Source of the DNA: Nitrospirae bacterium GWC2_57_13
GTDB taxonomy: Bacteria; Nitrospirota; UBA9217
NCBI GenBank assembly: GCA_001805055.1
Contig: MHDZ01000087.1
Location: forward strand, 1 to 41,782
Length of the DNA stretch: 41,782 nt
Direction of reading: 5' to 3'
Shown here: positions 15,866 to 16,869 of the stretch, in pieces
Numbering within the stretch: the first letter of the stretch is position 1
How the letters are laid out: every line of letters starts with the position of its first letter
Made by a program: the position numbers and the translations under genes
Notes under the pieces: model-generated
Told to the model about the DNA's origin: nothing
Database searches by the model: none
The model's input: only the letters and a program-made list of their open reading frames with translations

Positions 15866-16084
15866 GAGAGAAGGGGCGACCCTGCGAAGGCCCGTCGAAA
15901 TGCCCGATAGAAAAGCGGGACATTGTCGCTGGAAATACTAGCCGTTGCTCCTGTTCCTTCACGCCGGGTCCATTATCTGCGCATAACGCTGTTTCTTGGC
16001 ATTCTTACTAATATTCAAGGCGAGTTCTCAATTCTGCAAAGGGCTTCACGCCCTCATTTCCTGTAAAAGCATGCTGTTACGTTT

Positions 16085-16100
16085 TGGCACGCTGCCTGCA
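16085..16100 (+). promoter_or_regulatory. Sigma-54 type -24/-12 promoter
   Basis: TGGCACGCTGCCTGCA: the -24 GG (16086-16087) and -12 GC (16098-16099) are 12 bp apart, and all but one specified base of the TGGCAC-N5-TTGCA consensus matches. Predicted start near 16111, 28 nt before the first small membrane-protein gene. An AGGGC/GCCCT inverted repeat lies upstream (about 16037-16054). No enhancer-binding-protein gene is in the window. Confidence 0.72.
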
Positions 16101-16138
16101 ATGTATAAGGGCAAGAACGCGCAAGGGAGGTGGCAAAG

Positions 16139-16453
16139 ATGAAAACCACAATCGCAAAAAAGGCTTCACTGATCGGAGCAGGCGCCGGAATGGTGACCTT
16201 CGCTCTCTTCGGACTTCTTCCGGGAAGCATTCTGGGAGGCGCAGCAGGCATCAATGTAGCGGGATGGCTTTTCGGTCTTCCGCTGGAGCCGGGCCTGATC
16301 TCGCGGGCGATAGTGTTCCTTTCCATGCTCGCCGGCGTACTGGTGTCGGGCGTGGCTATCGTGACGGCAGCCGCGTCAGCAGGCTGGATCGCAGGCAAGG
16401 CAGTTGAGACCGTGGTTCATGCCGCCGTATATTCCGAGAAGACGGCGAATTAA
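16139..16453 (+). CDS. Small membrane protein, tandem paralogue 1
   Basis: 104 residues with two hydrophobic, Gly/Ala-rich segments (IGAGAGMVTFALFGLLPGSI, about 12-31, and FLSMLAGVLVSGVAIVTAAA, about 59-78) and a short polar C-terminus. It shares layout with the next gene: a short basic N-terminus, the F-LFG-LPG motif, a second helix, then a Gly-rich AGWIAGKAV tail. Start 16139 is favoured over GTG 16130 because GGAGGTG then lies 6 nt upstream. Its sigma-54-type promoter points to stress, nitrogen or envelope control. Function unknown. Confidence 0.75.
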   Translation: MKTTIAKKASLIGAGAGMVTFALFGLLPGSILGGAAGINVAGWLFGLPLEPGLISRAIVFLSMLAGVLVSGVAIVTAAASAGWIAGKAVETVVHAAVYSEKTAN

Positions 16454-16487
16454 ATAAACTACTATCAGGAAACGAAAGGAGAACGTC

Positions 16488-16799
16488 ATGAAGAACGAAA
16501 CGGTAAAAGCAGGAACAAAGATAGGTGCAGCAATCGGGGGTCTCGTATTCCTGGTCTTCGGGATCGTCCCCGGGTTCTACTTCGGCAGCTACGGAACGCT
16601 GATCCTGCTCCAGAAATTGATGGGCGGCACGGTGGAGCCTACGCTCTTTGTTAGGGCCGCGGTGGTCATGGGCATCATGGTCGGCATCCTCTGCGTGGCA
16701 GCGGTGAGCATCGTGGTCGGCGGACTTGTCGGAACAGCTCTGGGCTATGCGGTGTCGGCCCCGGCAGCGCTTCGCGAAAAGAAGGCCGAGGCGGCCTAA
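16488..16799 (+). CDS. Small membrane protein, tandem paralogue 2
   Basis: 103 residues, two predicted helices (IGGLVFLVFGIVPGFYFG, about 15-32, and AAVVMGIMVGILCVAAVSIV, about 57-76), and a short charged end (REKKAEAA). It aligns with the upstream protein over its whole length: FG-xPG in helix one, a VEPTLFVRA linker against LEPGLISRA, and a final small-residue helix. Duplication is therefore likely. Ribosome-binding site AAAGGAG. A clear terminator follows, closing a two-gene transcript from the sigma-54-type promoter. No known family assigned. Confidence 0.78.
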   Translation: MKNETVKAGTKIGAAIGGLVFLVFGIVPGFYFGSYGTLILLQKLMGGTVEPTLFVRAAVVMGIMVGILCVAAVSIVVGGLVGTALGYAVSAPAALREKKAEAA

Positions 16800-16841
16800 C
16801 AGGCAGCATTCAACAGGAGCTGCAAACAGTCAGCATGGTCA

Positions 16842-16869
16842 GAGGCGGTGAGCAATCACCGCCTCTTTT
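16842..16869 (+). terminator. Rho-independent terminator after the small membrane-protein pair
   Basis: Perfect 10-bp stem GAGGCGGTGA (16842-16851) and TCACCGCCTC (16856-16865) with a GCAA tetraloop and TTTTG tail. Confidence 0.88.

Follow-up and report, generated by a model that had tools for sequence, protein, structure and literature searches.

What might a pair of very small membrane proteins do behind a sigma-54 promoter of their own, and which regulator would turn that promoter on? The question is raised by a stretch of 41,782 nucleotides, here called the window, which is contig C87 in the genome of Nitrospirae bacterium GWC2_57_13 (3.32 Mb, 105 contigs, 95.7% complete). An earlier note, made from the bare sequence, had pointed to a near-perfect -24/-12 element 28 nt before the ATG of two paralogous two-helix membrane proteins, with a textbook terminator behind them. 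It proposed that sigma-54 control of only these two peptides meant a dedicated stress or membrane-remodelling response. The two genes are called A and B here, and the features of the unit are collected in Table 1 together with those of a candidate regulatory pair encoded elsewhere in the genome.

Table 1. Positions of the A-B unit and its control elements in the window, and of the candidate regulator and kinase genes on contig C43.
Feature	Position	Strand	Basis or remark
Upstream activator element TTCTCAATTCTGCAAA	16025..16040	+	putative enhancer-binding protein site; position checked; core conserved
Degenerate IHF-type site AAGCATGCTGTTA	16067..16079	+	2 mismatches to WATCAANNNNTTR; chance level in window copy
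-24/-12 sigma-54 promoter TGGCACGCTGCCTGCA	16085..16100	+	predicted; conserved among homologues; rpoN present
Ribosome-binding site of A, GGGAGG	16125..16130	+	sequence
Gene A	16139..16453	+	104-aa glycine-rich two-helix membrane hairpin; homologues found
Ribosome-binding site of B, AAGGAG	16476..16481	+	sequence
Gene B	16488..16799	+	103-aa paralogue of A; two-helix membrane hairpin
Intrinsic terminator of A-B unit	16841..16866	+	11-pair stem, T-rich tail
Candidate response regulator/enhancer-binding protein	L163 4615-5967 (contig C43)		PF00072, PF00158, PF02954 over cut-off
Partner kinase	L163 6140-8368 (contig C43)		dCache sensor with CxxCH motif

The earlier description of the unit itself holds up well. 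BLASTP aligns A with B at 34% identity across 106 columns (E 7e-10 for the single pair), which bears out the paralogy. The AlphaFold2 models each consist of two long helices, residues 5-45 and 53-103 in A (mean pLDDT 88.5) and 2-45 and 53-102 in B (mean pLDDT 91.1), and the terminator has the stem and T-rich tail of a textbook example. Glycine occupies 7 of the 9 invariant columns in the alignment of A family members and 9 of the 13 in that of the B family, a pattern that would resemble glycine-zipper hairpins. The search for further copies that the note had recommended turns up two more A-B units, three in total for the genome. All three (the others are in L032 and L033) end in a similar GGCGG(T/C)GA...TCACCGCC hairpin, which fits duplication of the whole unit. 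In one relative, a hairpin of the A family is joined to a PilZ domain (L145 5290-5859; PF07238, over cut-off) and adjoins an ordinary A-B unit; the copy from the same genome is in L017. A c-di-GMP output is possible for that fusion.

The proteins were called unknown, and the databases agree. Neither window protein has a match over the cut-off in Pfam or NCBIfam or a significant one in PHROGs, and no PDB family or solved fold is significant for either; the best Foldseek E values, 4.1 for A and 4.8 for B, were discarded. Several names were considered and rejected. DoxX_3, DUF3611, Rick_17kDa_Anti and Romo1 are weak Pfam matches of window B that fall under the cut-off. Among 71 A members, 5 match Oleosin (best E 4.3e-5, in a scan that did not show cut-offs), and this was judged a match of hydrophobic hairpins, as were the single matches of a few relatives to other families. 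No treatment of the pair or its regulon was found in the open-licence literature, judged by titles and abstract openings. A is present in 17 of the 61 genomes compared. Scanning named genome contigs found 77 related loci, 74 with Nitrospirota-type names and 3 unclassified (L130, L152, L157); the scan used a single peptide pattern, from which absence outside these bacteria cannot be read. Together with the window and the genome's two other copies, these make 80 sequences holding 152 family genes, among which the pairing of A with B is conserved. A and B belong to an unnamed family of small membrane proteins, found in Nitrospirota bacteria.

The -24/-12 element differs from TGGCACN5TTGCW by one mismatch and has a gap of 10 bases between its GG and GC. 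The predicted start is at about 16111, 12 nt past the GC element, and the ATG at 16139 is a further 28 nt on, in agreement with the spacing first noted. The short word was rejected as evidence by itself: TGGCAYN6TGCA occurs 15 times in the genome versus 17 for the reversed control, and a scan of the window for -24/-12 elements with two mismatches finds 18 versus 20.2 expected. Since the word is at chance level, it is conservation among homologues, not the word, that makes the case for a promoter. The strict form TGGCAYN6TGCW is the best upstream site in 72 of 79 lead genes of the A/B family versus 2 of 68 inner genes (the 152 genes minus 2 without a start call and 3 with less than 60 nt upstream), and 71 of the lead-gene sites lie 40-95 nt before the start. 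Lead genes lacking the strict site have near matches instead in L118, L131, L154 and L156; the others are a second A gene (L113), the fusion of A with PilZ (L145) and the B of L149, which was counted as lead because the A of that locus had no start call. The genome has rpoN, on whose presence the sigma-54 proposal had been made to depend, and 23 strong matches to Sigma54_activat, the domain of enhancer-binding proteins. Judged by this conservation, predicted sigma-54 control of the A-B pair is well supported.

Two elements farther upstream had been overlooked. The first has the form TTTGCA/TTCTCA-N-TGCAAA, and the second is an IHF-type site between it and the promoter. Among 71 family promoters (strict sites with 75 nt upstream), the activator core is found in 66 versus a mean of 0.15 in shuffles, and an IHF-type site no more than one mismatch away from WATCAANNNNTTR in 43 versus 2.7, in both cases with the expression or region picked after inspecting the sequences, which are related and not independent. 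The strict promoter form, the 500-bit line for the regulator and both composite patterns used below were likewise fixed after the data had been seen. The genome has two IHF/HU-family genes, the family PF00216 also covering HU. PMC7962754 gives the order enhancer, IHF, promoter, and an E. coli IHF consensus, WATCARXXXXTTR, that is slightly looser than the form used here. In many relatives, the A/B control region would have this usual enhancer-IHF-sigma-54 layout.

Combining the activator and sigma-54 elements into one composite pattern allows the regulon to be searched for other members. There are 59 matches in the 61 genomes versus 3 for the reversed control; the window's family, with 14 genomes, accounts for 39 versus 1. 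Those 39 comprise 26 before A (with one promoter of G001 counted twice), 4 before an operon for a c7 cytochrome and a cytochrome b, 4 at unreadable contig ends, 4 elsewhere, and one at a contig end in G010 that is probably before the c7/cytochrome b operon. The G010 match was placed by its position after a gene that we take to be truA-like. Three unassigned matches among the 39, in G002, G007 and G012, have downstream genes outside the set that was read. A second set, of 46 A-bearing genomes reached through the named loci and sharing at least 4 genomes with the 61, gives 45 matches versus 4 for the control. These fall in 27 genomes, and 19 of the 46 have no match to the pattern as written. Of the 30 matches that were read, 24 are before an A or B gene, 1 is before a 7-haem gene and 5 are elsewhere. 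The idea that sigma-54 controls only two peptides here is not wholly accurate: the genome has three units, and in some relatives the cytochrome operon shares the promoter type or its genes come straight after A/B. Within this genome, a composite match also lies directly before lpxC (PF03331) at G000:C91:20002 (L227 3518). Two more TGGCAYN6TGCA sites, each preceded by CTGCAGTATT-like repeats, are at G000:C10:46593 and 48175 (L044, L045), near another enhancer-binding protein; the genes behind them start MKILV.YDG and are presumably universal stress proteins.

The note had also advised looking for the enhancer-binding protein, and one orthologous response regulator tracks the pair. It has a receiver, a Sigma54_activat domain and a Fis-type HTH, all over cut-off, in the NtrC-type layout. 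At a line of 500 bits (the next group scores at most 448), its orthologue is in 18 of the 61 genomes, being present in 16 of 17 A-positive versus 2 of 44 A-negative genomes (Fisher p 1.2e-11, not kinship-corrected). Because the window's family is nearly uniform, the counts outside it carry the weight, and there the orthologue is in 5 of 5 A-positive versus 0 of 42 A-negative genomes, the five belonging to five different families. In the second set, 37 of the 46 genomes give a single match at an E threshold of 1e-135 and 9 give none. At most 27 first-look candidates were scored per genome in the 61-genome set and 36 in the 46-genome set. The exceptions are G003 (74% complete), which has A and no regulator orthologue above the line, and G002 and G005, which have the regulator and the cytochrome operon and no A match. 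The distance between the regulator gene and A/B is about 0.5 to 3 kb in L101, L125, L156 and L157 and about 5 kb in G026. In this genome, the kinase-regulator operon has no such promoter site by the pattern used. On the evidence of these sequences, the C43 orthologue is likely to be the particular regulator of A/B, and we infer that it binds the element at 16025-16040.

Could sigma-54 be right and the regulator wrong, with another of the roughly 23 enhancer-binding proteins driving the pair and the C43 system sharing only its lineage history? The number of candidates in the genome leaves room for this. So do the two genomes that keep the C43 orthologue without A, and so do the neighbours of A/B: of the 9 full-length regulators that the 80 sequences have there, 4 are in the C43 group (L101, L125, L156, L157) and 5 are outside it, including those just upstream of A in L107 and L109, which are closest to L068 of this genome. 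Against it, one orthologous group recurs near A/B in those four loci and G026, and it co-occurs with A across five different families outside the window's own. We consider a different regulator rather unlikely.

The partner kinase next to the C43 regulator suggests what is being sensed. Its domains are dCache_1, HisKA and HATPase, with PAS in several of the kinases. All 7 of the full partner kinases examined have a CxxCH motif in the sensor, where it falls in the latter half of the Cache region. Of 6 kinases scanned, all match dCache_1 (PF02743) over cut-off, and PF11845 is absent from their tables (one scan to E 0.1, the other to E 0.01). PF11845 is sCache_heme, for a signalling member of which NO-sensor properties are reported in PMC12889525. 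By its motif, the A/B-linked sensor may bind haem and sense redox or NO. Beside the regulator or near A/B, L157 5521-5799, L125 9001-9285 and L101 3969-4268 each encode a small membrane protein, rich in glycine and about 93-100 aa long. The three are alike by eye, and those of L157 and L101 have no Pfam match.

The survey of homologue contexts, another check that had been recommended, finds the regulator and multihaem or cytochrome b genes near A/B in several relatives. The L125 locus has a 7-haem c gene whose start is 16 nt past B, and behind it come a cytochrome b561-type gene and a 6-haem gene. Outside the window's family, where several loci may come from one genome, genes with five or more CxxCH motifs lie close to A/B on either side: one starts within 700 nt downstream in 8 of 46 loci with room, and one ends within the same distance upstream in 13 of 50. 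At 200 bits or more, the related cytochrome b occurs in 13 of 17 A-positive versus 2 of 44 A-negative genomes, and the composite site precedes the c7/cytochrome b operon in 4 of the 10 window-family genomes with a readable c7 start. The window's own genome has the cytochrome operon without a composite site, and the operon was rejected as a direct target there. Since an adjacent multihaem gene is also found in 0 of 20 window-family sequences counted (the genome's two other copies excluded), the respiratory link rests on the relatives. A respiratory role for A/B is our best guess, and the stress or membrane-remodelling response first proposed finds no support: the CxxCH-bearing dCache kinase and the cytochrome genes point to respiration or redox.

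The nearest version of the stress proposal would make A and B general envelope-stress proteins of the phage-shock kind, with the cytochrome linkage incidental. The Psp system, under PspF and sigma-54, is indeed a case of small membrane proteins under sigma-54 control. Small glycine-rich hairpins under sigma-54 would fit this, and the missing multihaem neighbours in the window's family lean the same way. However, PspF is without a receiver domain and a partner kinase, whereas the regulator linked to A/B has both; scanning A and B against Pfam brings up no Psp family; and cytochrome genes share the promoter type or closely follow A/B in several genomes. We regard this explanation as improbable. 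That the conserved upstream block is some other regulatory sequence and no sigma-54 promoter is scarcely credible: taken alone, the -24/-12 word is no commoner in the genome than chance would have it, but its position before lead genes, its near absence before inner ones, the activator and IHF-type elements at the expected places and the presence of rpoN all argue against it.

We think it probable, then, that a C43-type two-component system and sigma-54 drive A-B and that the pair serves a respiratory chain. The window would hold one of three copies of a bicistronic unit with sigma-54-dependent transcription. The C43 kinase would read a periplasmic signal through its dCache domain bearing the c-type haem motif, and the phosphorylated regulator would bind the upstream element. 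The intervening DNA would bend, with the help of IHF in many relatives, and the AAA+ domain of the regulator would open the sigma-54 polymerase complex at the promoter. Made at the same time, A and B would pair up as glycine-zipper hairpins in the inner membrane. There they would serve the electron transport chain on its quinol side; the likeliest function, which we infer, is that of scaffold or accessory subunits in a complex of cytochrome b with multihaem c. The best reading is that respiratory membrane accessory proteins form a sigma-54 regulon under the control of a kinase that responds to redox or NO. A bolder form is doubtful, though conceivable: that in part of the Nitrospirota, a dCache kinase with covalently bound haem, which would seem to stand apart from the described sCache_heme family, senses redox state or NO in the periplasm and induces a new family of paired glycine-zipper hairpins, themselves structural subunits of a quinol:multihaem cytochrome c oxidoreductase not yet described.

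Circuits of this kind are known; this one has an unnamed protein family and an unusual sensor. Like other NtrC-type enhancer-IHF-sigma-54 regulons, it would have an upstream element, in many relatives an IHF-type site, a -24/-12 promoter, a receiver-AAA+-Fis HTH regulator and a linked kinase. Unlike them, its targets are an unnamed hairpin pair, its sensor is a dCache domain with CxxCH, and the GAFTGA loop that contacts sigma-54 is altered in the window's family, reading GAFTSA or GSFTSA in the 12 orthologues printed (loci L196-L208) and GAFTGA in those printed from outside the family. Geobacter has Cbc-type quinol:cytochrome c complexes under sigma-54 regulators, and there too cytochrome b and multihaem c genes are linked to a sigma-54 regulator; no A/B pair is known there. 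No paper on the Geobacter Cbc/sigma-54 link was found in the open-licence literature. PMC12889525 describes sCache_heme (DUF3365/Tll0287) as a periplasmic Cache-type sensor with CxxCH that is also fused to histidine kinases and is reported to be enriched in Nitrospirota among others; the A/B-linked motif differs in sitting in dCache_1, with PF11845 absent in the 6 kinases scanned.

Genetic work in Nitrospirota is scarce. What was a lone promoter guess is now a testable regulon with a named candidate regulator, its element, an IHF-type site, a promoter and targets. The combination of dCache_1 with CxxCH would be a possible second way for Cache sensors to carry a c-type haem motif, and an unnamed family of small membrane proteins gains a regulatory and, as our best guess, a respiratory context.
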